Positions 7,654 to 29,728 of a stretch of 64,000 nt of DNA are shown here, piece after piece. The DNA is taken from assembly GCA_016871755.1 (NCBI GenBank), contig VHCJ01000006.1, positions 62,001 through 126,000 of the forward strand, given 5' to 3'. The notes below the pieces were generated by a model. It saw only the letters and a list, made by a program, of their open reading frames with translations, ran no database searches and had not been told where the DNA came from. The number at the start of each line of letters is the position of its first letter. The stretch's first letter is position 1. Origin of the DNA: Verrucomicrobiota bacterium (GTDB taxonomy: Bacteria; Verrucomicrobiota; Verrucomicrobiia; Opitutales; Opitutaceae). The translations under genes were made by a program, and so were the position numbers.

Positions 7654-9098
7654 TTAAGACGCTGCGCGAGGCAGGCCGAGCGCCTGTCGCAGCAAGGAAT
7701 GAACCTGGAGGTTCAGCAGCACCCCGGAGAAGGCCTCACTTCCGGGCCCGAGGGCCACGAGTTCGGCCATGTCGGACGTGTGGGAAATCCCGGTCCAACC
7801 GACCGCCAGATGGTTCGCGAGCACCTGACCGAGGATCACGATGGGGCTGGACCGCGCGCGGTACGCGTCGGAGTAATCCTTCCGCAACGCCCGGTGCACG
7901 AGGGCGGCCTCGGCCTTCGAGACATTCAGTCCGGTACCGAGGACAATGCGGTCGCGCACGGCGGCGGCGTCGCTCTGGGCGGAAAGCCCGTCGATGATCC
8001 AGTCGTTGGTCTGGCGCAGCGTGAACGCGCGCTCGAACGCCGCGTCGGTGTGCCGTAGGCGCCGCCGGTGCCATTGAGGCCCGGATTGGAGTTTCCATGG
8101 TCGGTGGTGACGATCACCAGCGTGTCGTCGCGACCGGCCGCGAAGCGCAGCGCGACGGCGAGGGCGTCGTCGAAGGCCAGCTGATCGTGAACCAATCCGC
8201 CGAAGTCGTTTGCATGGGCGGCGTGGTCCACGCGCGCCCCCTCGATCTGGAGCACGAAGCCACGATCCCCGCCCTGCGCACTCAGTCGCCCGAGGGCCAC
8301 CTCGGCCATCTCCGCCAGTGTCGGCACTGCGGCGGTGAGCTCGGCGGACGCGGCGCGATCCAAGGAGAACGGCAGATGGCCGGAGCTGAACGTACCGAGG
8401 AGACGTCCCGACTTCGGCGCGGCGGCGAGCGCCGCGCGGTCGCGCGCCACGGCACAGCCCGCCGCAGCGAAGGCGCCAAAGAGATCCTTGCCATCGACGC
8501 GACGCGCCGGGTCGAAGAAACGGGCGCCGCCGCCGAGGAACAGATCGATCTCGGAACGGAGGTAACGGTCCGCGATGGCGTCCTCGTCATTGCGCCCGGG
8601 GACGTTCACGGCGAAGCCCGCCGGCGTTGCGTGCGTGATCGTCGCGGTCGACACGAGGCCGGTCGCCCGCCCCGAGGCCCGGGCCGCGTCGAGCAGCGGT
8701 TGCGGCAGTTCGCCTCGTGGACCCACGTTGATCGCCCCGTTCGCCACCCGCATTCCGCCGCCCCACGCGGAGGACGCGGCCGCGGAATCCGTTACGATGC
8801 TGGAGGCCGACGCCGTGTCGATCAGGGCGCGGTGCACACCCTCGCGCCCGTAGAGGCCGATCCACTCGGTGCCCCTGCCCTCGCGACGCCGGCGGAACTG
8901 CTGCGCCATCGAAAGCGTTCCGAGGCTCATGCCGTCGCTGACGAGGAAGATCACATTGCGGGCGCCTCCGCTCTCGCCGCGCGCCCGCGACGCGGCCGGC
9001 TTCGTGCCCGTCGCCGCCGGCAATGCGGCAGGCAAAGCCGCGACGGCGGCACCAGAAACTGCACTCTTGAGAAACGCGCGTCTCGACGTGAGCGACAT
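7654..9098 (-). pseudogene. PhoA-type alkaline phosphatase interrupted by a -1 frameshift
   Basis: The reading starts at ATG 9098 with MSLTSRRAFLKS, a twin-arginine signal. It contains IFLVSDGMSLG, the catalytic TDSAAASSAW, EGARVDHAAHAND and TTDHGNS motifs of the alkaline phosphatase superfamily (EC 3.1.3.1). Near 8049-8054 the frame is lost after GTGGAYG. Similarity resumes one base out of register with TDAAFERAFTLRQTNDW and continues to the conserved GISHTSDMAELVALG metal-ligand region, ending at 7654. A single missing base explains this. No slippery heptamer is visible, so programmed shifting is unlikely; a sequencing error or a recent mutation fits best. Full length would be about 480 residues, normal for the family. 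Confidence 0.85.
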
Positions 9099-9190
9099 GC
9101 CGACTAGCGTGCCGGTCACGCTCAGCGGATCAACGCCCAAACCACGGTCCGACGGATCCGCTGCGCTGATTTTTCGCAAACCTTCACCCG

Positions 9191-11468: not shown

Positions 11469-11550
11469 GGCGGGGAACAGCGTCGGCGGGAAACGGTAAG
11501 CTTGCCTCCCGGTGGGCCGCGTGCGGCGATCTCAGCGTCGCTGCGAATTC

Positions 11551-12921
11551 ATGGCTTTTCCTCCTACCCCCTCCCGCCGGACGTTCCTTCGTACGCTCGG
11601 GGCCGCGTCGCTCGCGGCTCCCGCCTTCGTGCGCCACCTGCGCTCCGCTCCCCCGAGCGGCACCCTCCGCCACGCCAGCTTCGGTGCGGCGGGGATGGCG
11701 TGGGCCGACATCCAATCGATCTGCAGCAACCCCTTCGTTAAGCTGGTCGCCGTCGCCGAAGTCGACCTAAACCGCATCGCGGAGCTCAAGGCGTGGCACC
11801 CGGACGTGCGCATCTACCAAGACTGGCGCCGTTTGCTGGACCGGGAACAGGGTGAGATCGACTCGGTCAACGTTTCCACCCCGGACCACCTCCACGCGCC
11901 AATCGCGCTGCGGGCGATGCAACTGGGCAAGCACGTCTACTGCCAGAAGCCCCTGGCCCACAACGTCCACGAGACCCGGGTGCTCACGGAGATCGCCCGT
12001 CAGAAGCGCCTCGTGACCCAGATGGGCATCCAGATCCACTCCCAGAAGGTCTATCGCCAGGCCGTCGCCCTCGTGCACTCGGGCGCGATCGGCAAAGTCC
12101 GGGAAGTCCACACTTGGAGCAACAAGAAGTGGGGTGACGCCGGCCCGCCGCCGGTCACCGGAGACGCGGTGCCCGCCGACTTCGATTGGGACCTCTGGCT
12201 CGGTGGGGCAGCCGTGCGACCCTTCGTCGGCAACGGCTACTACCATCCCGGCAACTGGCGGAAGCGCCTCGACTTCGGCACGGGCACGTTCGGAGACATG
12301 GGATGTCACATCTTCGATCCCGTGTTCGAGGCGCTGGCCCTCACGGCGCCGCTCAGCATCCGCTCGGAGGGCCCGGCACCGGACGCGTGGAACTGGGCGA
12401 TCAACGCGCGCATTCAGTACGTATTTCCGGGCACGCCGTATACGGCGGATCAGACGGTGCCGGTGACCTGGTACGACGGCGCCGCCCGTCCCCCGGCGGA
12501 CGTGCTCGCTCTCGTCACCCCCTCGCCGGCGGCAGTGAACGGCAACCGCGGCGGCAAGGCCCGCGACGTGATGGAGCAGGGCTCGATCATCATCGGCACC
12601 CAAGGCGTCCTGCACGTGCCCCACATCGACACCCCGCGCCTGTATCCATCCGACAAGTTCAAGGACTTCCCGATGCCCGCGGTGAAGGACGCCCACCATT
12701 GGTCGCAATGGGCGGAGGCCTGCCGCACCGGCGCCGTGCCCTCGGCCTCGTTCGACTACTCCGGCCCGCTCACGGAGGCCGTGCTCCTCGGCAGCGTGGC
12801 GGTGCGTTACCCGCAGACCACGCTGGCGTGGGATTCGGCCCGCTTGACCTTCACCAACCTCCCGGAAGCCAACGTGCACCTGCGGCGCGAGTACCGGAAG
12901 GGTTGGGAGTTCGCGGTGTGA
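11551..12921 (+). CDS. TAT-exported Gfo/Idh/MocA family oxidoreductase
   Basis: 456 residues. The N-terminus MAFPPTPSRRTFLRTLGAA is a twin-arginine signal, so the enzyme is exported already folded with its nicotinamide cofactor. A Rossmann-type domain follows, with STPDHLHAPIALRAM and the YCQKPLAHNV motif that replaces the usual EKP. The C-terminal substrate domain has FGTGTFGDMGCHIFDP. Related exported members are abundant in Verrucomicrobia and Planctomycetes, and probably oxidise or rearrange sugars released outside the cell. It is followed by the PVC-type dehydrogenase on the same strand after 167 bp. The precise substrate is unknown. Confidence 0.88.
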   Translation: MAFPPTPSRRTFLRTLGAASLAAPAFVRHLRSAPPSGTLRHASFGAAGMAWADIQSICSNPFVKLVAVAEVDLNRIAELKAWHPDVRIYQDWRRLLDREQGEIDSVNVSTPDHLHAPIALRAMQLGKHVYCQKPLAHNVHETRVLTEIARQKRLVTQMGIQIHSQKVYRQAVALVHSGAIGKVREVHTWSNKKWGDAGPPPVTGDAVPADFDWDLWLGGAAVRPFVGNGYYHPGNWRKRLDFGTGTFGDMGCHIFDPVFEALALTAPLSIRSEGPAPDAWNWAINARIQYVFPGTPYTADQTVPVTWYDGAARPPADVLALVTPSPAAVNGNRGGKARDVMEQGSIIIGTQGVLHVPHIDTPRLYPSDKFKDFPMPAVKDAHHWSQWAEACRTGAVPSASFDYSGPLTEAVLLGSVAVRYPQTTLAWDSARLTFTNLPEANVHLRREYRKGWEFAV

Positions 12922-13088
12922 CGACCGCGTCCACCGGGAAAGCCACGTCCACCCCGCACCGGATGCGTTCGGCAAGGTGCCCGGGTGGGCGGCACCAGGC
13001 TCGCTGCGCAAGGATGCCCGCTTGATCTGGACCGTGTCCATGGCACGTTTCTCCCCCCCCTTTAGCCACCACTCTCTTTCCCGACCTC

Positions 13089-16000
13089 ATGAGACGCTCC
13101 CTGTGTCGCCTTCTGCTCGCCGTGGGTGCGGCGATGCTGCTCCCGACGCTGCCCGCCGCGGAAGCTCCCATCCTGAAAGTGCTTTTTCTCGGCGACGCCG
13201 GTCCCTTGGAGCCGGCGACCCGCCTCCGCGTCGCGGCACCGGCGCTGATTGATCGCGGCATCCATCCCGTGTACTCGGAGACTCTTGCCACGCTGACGTC
13301 CGAGACCCTGCCTCACTACGCGGCGATTCTCGTCTACGCGACCCGGAACGACCTCACGGCGGCGCAGGAGGAAGCCCTGTGGCGGTACATCGACAACGGC
13401 GGCGGACTCATCGTGATCAACGGCGGCGCCTCGGCGTTCGCCGGATCGGACGCGTTTGCGCGTCTGGTGGGTGCCCGCCTGCGCCGCGGCGAGACGGCGA
13501 CGGTCACGACGCGCGTCGAGGCGGCGAGTCACCCGGTGATGCAAGGATTTCAGGCCTTCGAAGCGAAGGACGAAGGCGGTGTGGTCGAACTGCTCGGCGC
13601 GAACGACCGCACCGTCCTCGAGTCGCGAGGTGGCCGGCCCTCGACCTGGGTCCGCGCCCAAGGCCGCGGCCGCGTGTTCTACACCACCTGGGGCCGCGAA
13701 GCGGCGACGTGGGGCCTGCCCGGATTCCAGGACCTGCTGGAGCGGGCGGTGCGCTATGCCGCCGGGCAAATTGAACCAGCGAACCCGCGGCACCGCCCAG
13801 CCACCGCGCGCCTCGAGCGCGTTCCGCAGACGGGCATCCCGTACTACTCGCCCGGCCAGCGCACTTCCGGAGAGAGCCAGTGGCCGCTGATCCAAAAGCC
13901 GCTCAGTCCCGAGGCCTCGATGCAACGCCTCGTCGTCCCCGGCGGATTCGCCGTCGAATTGGTCGCGGCCGATCCGGAGATCCGGAAACCGATCGCGATG
14001 GCCTGGGACGAGCGCGGCCGACTCTGGCTCGCTGAGACCCTCGACTATCCCAACGTCCTGCGCGAACCCGGCCAGCCCGGGCGCGATCGCCTGGTGGTCT
14101 GCGACGACCATGACGGCGATGGCCGCATGGACACCTTCACGGTCTTCGCGGATGGCTTGAACATCCCCACCGGATTCACGTTCGCGCGCGGCGGCGTCGT
14201 GGTCGTGCAGGCCCCCCACACCCTCTTTCTCCGGGACAACGACGGAGACGACCGCGCGGACGAGCGCGAAATCCTCTTCACTGGCTGGGGGCGCTACGAC
14301 ACGCATGCCGGCCCGAGCAACCTCATTGCCGGGCCCGACAACTGGATCTGGGGCACGCTGGGCTACTCCGGCTTCACGGGCAGCGTTGGTGGCGAGCCGC
14401 ACAACGTTCGCCAAGGCTTTGTCCGCTTCCGGCCCGACGGCACGCGGTTCGAGTTTCTCCGGGCGACCAACAACAACACGTGGGGACTCGGGTTCCGCGA
14501 GGACGGCATCGCCTTCGCCTCGACCGCGAACAACAACCCCAGCGTCTACCTCCCCCTCCCGAACCGGCTTTACTCCGCCGTGGGCGCCGAGGCGCGCACG
14601 CTGGGCGGCATCGCGGACACGTCGCGCTTCGTCGCGCTGACCGACCGCGTCCGCCAAGTCGATGTGCACTGGGGCTACACGGCCGCGGCCGGTCACGCCT
14701 TCTACACCGCGCGGAGCTACCCGCGGGAGTACTGGAACCGCATCGCCTTCGTGACGGAGCCCACGGGCCATCTCGTCGGTGAATTCGTCGTTGAACCAAC
14801 CGGCGCGAACTTCCGCTCCTCCAATCCGACGAACCTGATCGCCAGCGATGACGAGTGGTTCGCGCCAATCATGGCGGAGGTGGGCCCGGACGGCGCCGTG
14901 TGGGTGATCGACTGGTACAACTAAATCGTGCAGCACAACCCGACGCCCAAGGGATTCGAGCGCGGCGCCGGCAATGCGTACGAGAATTCGCTGCGTGACC
15001 AGCGACACGGCCGCATCTACCGCATCGTGTGGCGCGGCGGCCCGTCGGCGACGGCGCCCGCGAAGCCCGCGCCCTTCAGCCTCGCGGGAGCCAAGCCCGA
15101 TGCCTTGGTCGCAGCGCTCGGGCACGAAAATCTACTCTGGCGACGGCACGCGCAGCGCCTGCTCGTGGAACGCGGCCGCAAGGACGTGGTGTCGGCGCTG
15201 CTGGCGCGCCTCGCGGACCGCCGGGTTGATGAACTCGGCCTCCATCCCGGCGCGCTCCACGCCCTCTGGACCCTTGAAGGCCTGAACGCGGTGGACGCGA
15301 TCCCGGAGGCGCTGGAGGCAGTCACGCGCGCCCTCGATCATCCGTCCGCGGCGGTCCGCCGCGCGGCGACGCTCGCCCTGCCCCGCACGCCCGCCACCGT
15401 CACCGCGCTGCTGAAGGAGGACGGTCTCGCGGATCCCGACGCCCAGGTGCGCTTTGCCACCCTGCTTGCGCTCACCGAGGCTCCGGCCAGCCCGGAGGCC
15501 GGCCGCGCGATCCATGCGTTCCTCGACCGCCCGAACCTGACCGTGGACCGCTGGACGGCGGAGGCCGCGCAACTGGCCGCCCTGCGCCATGCCCGCGGGT
15601 TCATCGCGGCGGCGCGGCCTGACGCACGGGCCGCCGCGGAAGCCGAGATCGCGCGGCGAGCCGCGCCTGGCAAGTCCGTGCCGGCGGTGCTCCCGCTCGA
15701 CAGCTTCGAAACCGCGCCGATCGGCACCCGCGGCGAGTGGACCCTGCATGTCCGCGAGGGCGAGGCGACCGCGGAAGTCGTGGAAGGCGGACGCACGAGC
15801 CACCGCAGCCTCCGACTGGCCGCCGGTCCGGGTGGAGCGGACGCCGCGGTCAGCCGCACGCTCACGGTGAAGCCCCACACCCGTTATGAGATCAGCGCCT
15901 CCGGCCGCACGGAGGCGGTCGAGACCACCGGCAACGCCCTTGGCGCCCTCCTCTCGGTGCCCGACCTCCACCGCCCCCAGCCGCAGCAAAGCGTGGCGAG

Positions 16001-16619
16001 CCGAGGTACGAGCAACTGGAGCATCACCCGCCTGATCGTCGACACCGGCCCGCGCGACACCTTGGACTTCAGCCTCGTCCTCGGAGCCGGCGGGAAGGTG
16101 ACCGGCAGCACGTGGTTTGACGACGTCACCCTCGTTGACCTCGGTCGCACGGACGAGCAAGTCGAGAACCCCCTTGCGGAGACGCTCGTGCAGGTCATCA
16201 CCCGCACGACGGCGCGGACGGCGGCGGCGGACCCGGACCGGGACGCGGTGGTGGTGCAACTGGGCGTGGTGCCCGACGTGATGAAGTACGACCGCACGGA
16301 GATGACGGTGAAGGCGGGCGAACGGATCCGCCTGGTCTTCCGCAACTGCGACCACATGCAGCACAATGCGCTGCTGCTCGCGCCCGGAGCGACCGACAAG
16401 ATCGGCGCCCTCGCGGACGCGATGCTCAGCGACCCCCGCGCGCTCTCGAAGCACTACGTCCCCGAGAGCCCGGACGTGCTGGCGCACACGCCGTTGGTGA
16501 ACCCGGGCGAGACCTTTGAGCTGGTGTTTACCGCGCCCGAAAAGCCCGGGCGTTATCCGATCATCTGTACCTTCCCGGGTCACTGGCGCATCATGCAGAG
16601 CACCCTGATCGTGCAATAG
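13089..16619 (+). pseudogene. PVC-type dehydrogenase with ThuA, beta-propeller, HEAT and cupredoxin domains, split by an in-frame TAA
   Basis: The frame stays open for 1,176 codons except for one TAA at 14922-14924 (codon 612), where the text reads DWYN-stop-IVQHNPTPKGF. Related proteins have Tyr there, so one base change (TAC or TAT to TAA) explains the break. Order of parts: signal peptide; ThuA-like domain (about 25-225); soluble-dehydrogenase-type beta-propeller from about 280 (LVVPGGFAVELVAADPEI, AMAWDERGRLWLAETLDYPN); a helical HEAT-like stretch; a beta-sandwich; and a C-terminal cupredoxin (NCDHMQHN, ICTFPGHWRIM) with His, Cys, His and Met copper ligands. No CxxCH haem site is visible, so the copper domain would be the electron acceptor. 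It is probably periplasmic sugar oxidation. The second half could start at GTG 14928 but would lack a signal peptide. Confidence 0.85.
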
Positions 16620-16825
16620 TCCAGCCGGCGGGTGGCGCGCCGCTTGCGCGCGCCGCGTCGCTCCCACTGCGGCGAGGTTGCGGAGGGATTCTGAAGTGCG
16701 TCCAAGCCGGGGTGGGCACACGCTTCCGCCGCACTCGGATCGCCCCCCGGAAGGCGCCCCTGCGGGTGTGCACTCGACTTCGCCCGCCGCTCCCGCTCCA
16801 CTCCCCCGCCGTCACCCCTCATCCC

Positions 16826-26839: not shown

Positions 26840-27940
26840 ATGAAAACCTACCGCGCCGCACTCGTCGGCACCGGTTCCATCAGCAATGCCCACGTCCGGG
26901 CGGTCGAAGCGACCCAAGGTCGCGTGGTCCTTGAGGCCGCGATCGACATCGATGCGACCCGCGTCGCCGACTTCGCCCGACGCCACGGCATCCCGAAGCA
27001 CTTCACGGATTACGAAGCGATGCTGGACACGCTCCGGCCGGACTTCGTGCTGGTGGCCACGCCGCCGTCGATGCATGCACCGATGAGCATTGCGGCGATG
27101 AAGCGCGGAGCCTGGGTGCTCTGCGAGAAGCCGCTGTGCGGTTCGCTGGCGGAGCTGGATCAGATCCAGGCGGCGGAGGACCAGACGGGGTGCTTCACGG
27201 CGTGCATCTTCCAGATGCGCTTCGCGAGTTCGACCGCCCATGTGCGGCGCCTGGCCGACGGCGGCCTCCTCGGTCGTCCGCTCGTTGGCGTGTGCAACAC
27301 GCTCTGGTACCGTGACACCGCGTACTATGCGGTGCCGTGGCGCGGCCGCTGGGCGACGGAGCTCGGGGGGCCGACGATGGGGCACGGCATCCACGCGATG
27401 GACCACTTCCTGCACCTCATGGGCGACTGGCGGGAAGTGCGCGCGCTGGCCGCGACTCTGGACCGCGAGATCGAGGTTGAGGATGTTTCGATGGCGATGG
27501 TCCGGTTCGCCAGCGGGGCGGTCGGCTCGATCGTGAACAGCGTGCTCAGCCCGCGGCAGGAGACCTATCTCCGTTTCGACTACCAGAAGGCGACCCTTGA
27601 GCTGACGCACCTGTACAGCTACACGAAGGAGAACTGGAAGATGACGCCAGTGGTCCCGGGCCACGACGAGACTCTCCAGCAGGCATGGCAGAGCTTCCCG
27701 CCCGACGTTGGTTCGACCCACGGGGCCCAACTCTGCGCCTTGGTGGCGGACCGGGACCAAGGACGACGCCCTCTCACCTCCGGATTCGAGGCCCGCAAGA
27801 CGCTGGAGTTCCTGACGGCGATCTACAAATCGGCCTTCACCGGGGAGAGCGTCGCCCGCGGATCGATCCACCCGGACGACCCCTTCTACCACGCGCTCCA
27901 CGGGGGCCGCGCGCTGGAACGCCGCAAGGCTTCCGCCTGA
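26840..27940 (+). CDS. Gfo/Idh/MocA family oxidoreductase (cytoplasmic)
   Basis: 366 residues without an export signal. The Rossmann motif is VGTGSIS (9-15), followed by LVATPPSMHAP, the catalytic Lys in CEKPL, and a C-terminal domain with GGPTMGHGIHAMDHFLHLMG, whose His residues form the active site in this family. It follows the symporter by 9 bp and precedes the ABC exporter by 16 bp, so it most likely oxidises or epimerises the sugar imported by the symporter. The substrate is unknown. Confidence 0.9.
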   Translation: MKTYRAALVGTGSISNAHVRAVEATQGRVVLEAAIDIDATRVADFARRHGIPKHFTDYEAMLDTLRPDFVLVATPPSMHAPMSIAAMKRGAWVLCEKPLCGSLAELDQIQAAEDQTGCFTACIFQMRFASSTAHVRRLADGGLLGRPLVGVCNTLWYRDTAYYAVPWRGRWATELGGPTMGHGIHAMDHFLHLMGDWREVRALAATLDREIEVEDVSMAMVRFASGAVGSIVNSVLSPRQETYLRFDYQKATLELTHLYSYTKENWKMTPVVPGHDETLQQAWQSFPPDVGSTHGAQLCALVADRDQGRRPLTSGFEARKTLEFLTAIYKSAFTGESVARGSIHPDDPFYHALHGGRALERRKASA

Positions 27941-27956
27941 TCCGGCTCCGGAGCCG

Positions 27957-29728
27957 ATGAAACGCGAGGCCCTGGCATCGCGGACGCTGACCGGCTACAT
28001 CTGGGCCAGTCGCCGGGTGCTGCTGCCCGGACTGGCCCTGGCGCTGCTGCGATCGCTGGCGGTGGCGCCCTGCCCGTGGCTGTTCCAGCGGATGATCGAC
28101 GTCTGCGTGCCGGCGCGCGACCTTGAGGGCCTGCTCCTGCTGGCCGGCATCTTCATCGGACTGCTCGGCGTGCATTACGTCTTCTCGGTCTGGGGGGCGA
28201 ATGAGATCGCGAAGGGCATGGCGCAGATGCTGGTGGAACTCCGCAGCCGGATCTTCTTCAAGCTGCAGTTCCTGAGCTTCGGCTATCTCGACCAGCAGCG
28301 CACGGGACGCCTGCTCTCCAAGTACGCCTTCGACACGCAGAAGGTGGAAGCGCGCTGTACAACATCCTGAATCAGTTCCTGCCGAACGTACTCTACGGCG
28401 CGAGCATCCTGCTGATCCTCGCCGTGCTCGACTGGCGGCTGGCGGTGATCCTTGCCCTCGTGCTGCCGTTCTACGCGGTGGCGAAGCTGAAGTTCTCGGA
28501 GCGAATCCAAGGCACCAATCGCGACGCCCGGCTGGCGCAGGAACGGCTCACCGGGACGGCGAGCGAGTACATCTCCGCGCTGCGGCTCGTGCGCAGCTTC
28601 GGCGAGGAACGGCAGGCGGAGGCGGACCTCGACCGCAGCAGTCTCGACTTCGCCCGGAGTCGCGTCGCGCAGAGTTACGTCAACGCGGTCTTCGGCACCT
28701 TCTGGTGCGTCAGCACCCAGATCATCGCCCTCGTGGTGATGGCGGGCGGCGCCTACCTCGCGATCCGCGGAGGCCTCTCCCTCGGGACGCTGTTCGCCTT
28801 CGTCGCCGGCCTGCCCATCGTGCTTGGACCGATTCAGGCGTTCATCGGACTGACCGAACAGTACTTCGCCGGAAGGGAGAGCTTCCACAGCATCAAGGAA
28901 CTGATCGACTCCGCGTACGTGGAGTCGTGGCACGGGACCCGGCGCACCGGGCGACTCCGCGGCGAAATCCGGTTCGAGTCGGTGGCCTTCGCCTATCCGA
29001 CGGCCCCGGAGCGGCGGGTGCTCGAGCCATTCTCGCTGCACATCCAGCCGGGCGAACACATCGCCTTCGTCGGTCCGTCCGGTTCCGGCAAAAGCACTCT
29101 GGCAAACTTGCTCCTCGGACTCTACGCCCCGGATGAAGGCCGGATCCTGATCGACGGCGTTCCGCAGTCGGAATGGGACATGCGGTGGATCCGACGCCAA
29201 CTCGCCGTCGTCCTGCAGGACAGCATCCTGCTCTCGGGCACCGTGCGCGAGAACCTGCGCTTCGCGAAGGCCGACGCCACGGACGCGGAGATCCGCGAGG
29301 CGGCGCGCCAGGCCAACGCCGAGGAGTTCATCCAGCGTCTCCCGCAGGGCTACGACACCCTCGTCGGGGAGCGCGGCACCACCTTGTCCGGCGGCCAACG
29401 CCAACGCCTGGCGATCGCCCGCGCGGTGCTGCGGAATCCACCCGTCCTGATCCTCGATGAAGCGACGTCGGCGCTCGACTACGAGAGCGAGCGGCTCATT
29501 CAGGAGGCGATCGACCGCCTGTCCGCTGGACGGACGGTGATAACGATCGCCCACCGGTTGAGCACGATACGCAATGCCTCGCGCATCGTCGTCCTCGACG
29601 CCGGACGTCTGGTCGAGGAAGGCAACTTCACCTCCCTGCTGGCGCGCAACGGTGCCTTCGCGCGGCTTGTCGCCGCGCAGGAAGTCGCCCACGCTTCCCC
29701 TACTCCGGCCTCCCCCCTCCGCTCATGA
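27957..29728 (+). pseudogene. ABC exporter (MsbA-like half-transporter) interrupted by a -1 frameshift
   Basis: The N-terminal membrane domain starts at 27957 and reads normally to SKYAFDTQKVE; then the frame runs to a TGA at 28368. Similarity resumes one base out of register at ALYNILNQFLPNVLYG, and the rest (about 455 residues) is intact. Loss of a single G or C near 28350 explains it. The nucleotide-binding domain has Walker A GPSGSGKST, Q-loop VLQDSILLSG, signature LSGGQRQRLAIARA, Walker B LILDEATSALD and the AHRLSTIR switch. Full length would be about 590 residues, normal for lipid or peptide exporters of the MsbA type. The 3' end overlaps the next gene by ATGA. A sequencing error is as likely as true inactivation. 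Confidence 0.87.

Follow-up and report, generated by a model that had tools for sequence, protein, structure and literature searches.

A conserved gene for a multidomain protein in a draft Opitutaceae genome is interrupted by one in-frame TAA, and the likeliest explanation of this stop is an error in the sequence or a copy that broke very recently, not a new way of reading a gene. We consider it probable, from sequence comparison, that the TAA is a consensus error that arose during sequencing or assembly. From the stop itself, its absence in relatives, the constraint found on both sides of it and the other lesions of the same assembly, we infer that the base may be wrong, as opposed to reflecting a real recent mutation.

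A multidomain gene with a lone internal stop

The window, that is, the whole stretch of 64,000 nucleotides that was analysed, belongs to a draft assembly of the family Opitutaceae with 144 contigs and 3.67 Mb. Frame reading, profile matches and comparison within the genus delimit a gene at 13089–16619 on the forward strand, which encodes a protein of 1,176 positions with ThuA, DUF7133/TIGR02604, HEAT-like and cupredoxin parts and has one interruption. Exactly one internal stop is present, a TAA at 14922–14924 (codon 612), the rest of the frame being open up to a terminal TAG. The first-pass annotation had reported a lone TAA in 1,176 otherwise open codons; the lone stop and the open frame stand, while the exact count is 1,177 codons, made up of 1,175 sense codons and the two stops. 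A stop would arise from 256 of the 10,575 single-base changes that are possible in this frame (2.4%). The homologous protein of the named nearest relative, an Opitutaceae MAG (L033), aligned with the window gene as a single HSP spanning residues 1–1176 with 82% identity, in agreement with the earlier claim that similarity continues through the stop. Beside the TAA, 14 of 15 residues were identical on one flank and 15 of 15 on the other, and codon-usage scores over 50 codons on each side (19.3 and 15.8) identified both flanks as coding.

All domains lie on the forward strand. The ThuA domain (PF06283, E 1.5e-24) occupies 13275–13760, corresponding to residues 63–224, and is preceded by an N-terminal stretch of about 25 residues that, judged by eye, looks like a Sec signal. 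The propeller-like domain (13905–14921) matched both DUF7133 and TIGR02604 above their curated cut-offs, the latter, named for PVC-type heme-binding CxxCH proteins, with 222.7 bits against a cut-off of 122.2, and has a weak fold match. The DUF7133 match ends at profile position 349 of 385, where the TAA falls. Beyond the stop, HEAT-like repeats (PF13646, 15261–15473) scored 23.4 bits, under the Pfam cut-off of 27.7, and a cupredoxin domain (PF00127, 16254–16616) scored 36.8 bits, above the Pfam cut-off of 21.2, so that the copper domain is indeed kept in the downstream half, as had been proposed. Its stretches CTFPGH and MQHN were invariant across nine sequences. Among solved structures, auracyanin A (2aan) was the closest to this C-terminus (E 6.7e-22), followed by azurins; the azurin equivalog model TIGR02695 gave 31.7 bits, far under its cut-off of 105.1.

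The product read through the stop contains no CxxCH haem c motif, and the haem motif in the name of TIGR02604 is therefore missing here. Thus, the window protein resembles TIGR02604/DUF7133 proteins in its propeller-like domain, which exceeds both curated cut-offs, but differs from them in the absence of CxxCH and in the presence of an N-terminal ThuA and a C-terminal cupredoxin domain. The earlier designation as a PVC-type dehydrogenase accordingly suits the propeller part and not the whole protein, given the missing motif and the cupredoxin end. With the blue-copper proteins of the auracyanin/azurin type it shares the C-terminal domain, whose best match among solved structures is auracyanin A; in the window protein this cupredoxin is a fused domain, whereas theirs is a separate small protein. 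The combination in one protein of ThuA, a PVC-type propeller free of the haem motif, a HEAT-like region and an auracyanin-like cupredoxin is an unusual fusion, and no literature on the function of a ThuA/PVC-propeller/auracyanin-like cupredoxin fusion was found among open-licence papers.

Structure models were used for the position of the stop within the propeller. The model of the whole gene had a mean pLDDT of 56.2, with about 20–37 in the propeller region, and was discarded for placing residue 612, its confidence being too low. A model of the domain alone, built with 15 sequences, reached a mean pLDDT of 61.0 and a pTM of 0.68. Its best Foldseek match was soluble quinoprotein glucose dehydrogenase (1qbi_B, E 8.5e-8), a weak likeness (TM 0.46, rmsd 14.7, 14% identity) obtained with a model whose mean pLDDT is 61. 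Codon 612 corresponds to residue 348 of this model and opens a low-confidence stretch (348–369), with a predicted strand at 340–344 before it and the last strand at 378–384 after it. The only inference drawn from the model is that the TAA would lie ahead of the last strand of the propeller domain.

The interrupted codon in related genomes

Matches to the protein were present in all 10 genomes of the genus. Codon 612 is covered in eight of the nine other genomes (in G003, the contig ends at residue 310, which leaves the codon outside), and all eight read TAC, with no stop, at the site that the first-pass annotation had recommended comparing in close relatives. In seven of the nine, the orthologue is one unsplit full-length frame. 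The orthologue in G002, a fragmented assembly (440 contigs, 78% complete), is likewise broken: on contig C373 (1915–5181), it consists of several frame pieces and has an additional TGA.

A search of 200 genomes of the family yielded matches in 43 (48 rows, part of which fall short of codon 612), and a stop occurred only in the window's own row. Thirty loci were retained from this search, and 28 of them span the codon: apart from the window's own TAA, there were 19 TAC, 1 TAT, 3 TTT, 3 TTC and 1 CTC. The 27 other spanning loci thus encode tyrosine (20), phenylalanine (6) or leucine (1), and none has a stop. The residue had been described as a conserved tyrosine, which is correct within the genus and does not extend farther out, where phenylalanine and leucine occur. 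An exact-pattern search of viral_contigs found no independent copy.

Purifying selection on both sides of the stop

Relative to the genus genome G005, the nearest relative, whose protein is 82% identical, dN/dS (Nei-Gojobori) was 0.112 before the stop and 0.096 after it, rough values given a dS of about 1. There is thus no sign of relaxed selection past the lesion, as would be expected of a pseudogene, a comparison that is blind to a very recent null allele, which would show no relaxation either. Polarised amino-acid changes were also evenly shared, with 18 in the window lineage and 17 in the G005 lineage before the stop, and 15 and 12, respectively, after it. Sites invariant in nine relatives were all kept in the cupredoxin domain (41 of 41) and in codons 613–700 (38 of 38). 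Counted along the entire downstream part, 2 of 139 invariant sites are altered in the window sequence, and the same number in the control L033. Since dN/dS is equally low on both sides and the stop is absent from relatives, the stop must have arisen very recently, be missing from the organism itself, or be read through.

The first of these possibilities corresponds to a genuine, very recent nonsense mutation in the strain or in part of its population, which we regard as possible, if on balance doubtful. The product would comprise 611 residues and break off before the end of the propeller, so that it lacks both the HEAT-like region and the cupredoxin; it would probably be inactive. The TAA is present in the deposited sequence, a single base change is enough to produce it, as reflected in the fraction of stop-creating changes given above, and undecayed constraint on both sides is also what a very recent null would show. 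Such an allele would have to be too recent to have left a mark on the 564 downstream codons, and several other conserved genes of the same genome would need equally recent hits.

Further lesions of the assembly

Contig C4 of G005 and the window are collinear (457–54456 of the window in the stretch compared), and this comparison revealed two 1-nt deletions. One, near 8055, lies in an alkaline phosphatase gene (7663–9110, reverse strand) that is a single open frame in G005; the other, near 28353, lies in an ABC transporter gene (27819–29722, forward strand) and puts the ABC membrane domain partly in each of two frames. No long homopolymer was found at either gap. Elsewhere in the genome, a second TIGR02604 gene (L112, contig C12, 9127, reverse strand) has a TGA where the codon is TGG in G005, G009 and G001; the segment is 95% identical to G005. 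Stops affect 2 of the 23 TIGR02604 rows of the window's genome, and none were seen in 121 rows of G005, G009, G001 and G007. Among the matches listed in the genus search, five rows contained stops, all of them in G000 (two) or G002 (three).

A two-way lesion scan found two stops and four frameshifts in 99 HSPs (39,561 codons) of the window's genome, and no stops or frameshifts in 96 HSPs (38,476 codons) of G005 under the same criteria. This excess over a close relative, of the kind expected from assembly errors, is a small contrast (six against zero, with one control genome; one-sided about 0.016 by hand arithmetic). In its first pass, the scan was dominated by wrong-frame ORFs, giving four frameshift rows here, two in G005 and many stops both ways, and the filters were tightened twice following the noisier passes. 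In the final version, the filters removed 12 stops here and 28 in G005; the closest of the rejected G005 cases (L132, within 11537–12823) had 13 and 14 identical flanking residues and was excluded with codon scores of −3.0 and 2.1. A separate scan for interrupted genes by codon usage was dropped in its first version, which overlooked the known TAA. The second version recovered it and named 21 further candidates here, against 8 in G005, many of them resembling neighbouring genes that share one frame; L096:18186 (reverse strand) and L110:10496 (forward strand) are possible single-stop interruptions in the window's own genome.

The six lesions are distributed over five genes; two of the four frameshifts fall inside the window, and three of the six lesions lie no more than 2.1 kb from a contig start (L098 and L100). 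Ranking by the nonsynonymous to synonymous ratio was possible for four lesioned genes, which are dispersed across the 86 ranks (the two pieces of the ABC transporter gene at 7 and 67, the others at 38, 60 and 82), with no clustering at the relaxed end. The beta-lactamase-family hydrolase (PF00144) of L100 (contig C4, reverse strand) differs from its G005 counterpart by a TAG as well as a frameshift, at about 1036 and 1851 and near the contig start. Doubly damaged and ranked 82nd of 86, it may be a real pseudogene, which would suggest that genes are also truly decaying in this genome and lends some support to a true null allele at codon 612. At the same time, no stops were detected in PF00005 rows (64 here, 75 in G005) or in the seven PF00133 rows here, indicating that the assembly is not riddled with stops. 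Given these stop-free families and the possible pseudogene in L100, error and true gene loss may both be active in this genome.

What favours a consensus error over a null allele at codon 612 is the occurrence of further isolated lesions in conserved genes of this assembly. If both stops in the 39,561 scanned codons were errors, the substitution error would be roughly 0.07% by hand arithmetic, a plausible value for a draft assembly. One published study gives low read coverage or quality as a cause of spurious 'pseudogenes' with internal stops (PMC11017572). The lesions described here resemble the assembly-error pseudogenes of that study: they are isolated stops or 1-nt frameshifts, they affect conserved genes that are undamaged apart from them, and they are commoner than in a relative. 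The difference is that its authors had reads and near-identical genomes, whereas here the consensus alone is compared, with a nearest relative 82% identical in this protein.

Readthrough, gene split and reassignment

Of the three explanations offered by the first-pass annotation, a sequencing error and a very recent null survive, with error favoured, and readthrough finds no support. Programmed or tolerated readthrough of the UAA at a useful rate in this strain, inserting tyrosine or another residue, would yield both a short product and a full-length one that includes the copper domain as electron acceptor, and would represent a newly arisen bacterial switch. In its favour, the frame beyond the stop has remained intact under purifying selection, and the product of readthrough would be a normal protein. 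The stop itself is not conserved, being present in none of the 27 other spanning family loci and none of the eight covering genus genomes, and neither a suppressor tRNA nor a structured RNA was detected: none of the 45 tRNA places found has the anticodon UUA that would read UAA, there was no Rfam match within 12900–16800, and the 120 nt past the stop fold like shuffled sequences (z 0.44). We therefore consider readthrough very improbable.

Equally improbable is a division of the gene into two functional ones, in which translation of the downstream half would depend on coupled reinitiation. Its earliest possible start, a GTG 4 bases past the stop, opens a frame of 563 residues (14928–16619, forward strand), but the best upstream match to AGGAGG is 2 of 6, a weak point given that the gene's own start at 13089 is, by eye, also without a clear Shine-Dalgarno site. 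Moreover, the break lies within the DUF7133 match, the downstream half would be without the N-terminal signal-like stretch, and the full-length orthologues of seven genus genomes are unsplit. Reassignment of TAA was rejected: in 464 kb of sequence, 40 of the 386 frames that look coding terminate with it, so that it functions as a stop, and the other interrupted genes here have TGA and TAG.

The intact gene and its significance

Under the favoured explanation of a consensus error, the gene in the living organism would be one continuous open frame, and its product would be an exported protein composed of ThuA, a propeller like that of quinoprotein dehydrogenases and a C-terminal blue-copper domain. 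Such an intact enzyme would probably oxidise a sugar-like substrate and pass the electrons to its own cupredoxin. The intact gene thus probably encodes an exported oxidoreductase that brings along a blue-copper domain as its electron acceptor. Caution is called for with this assembly, whose isolated stops and 1-nt deletions should not be taken for biology unless reads back them. If the allele is real, it would represent an ordinary recent loss. As an enzyme architecture, the fusion of ThuA with a PVC-type propeller and a cupredoxin of the auracyanin kind is mildly interesting.
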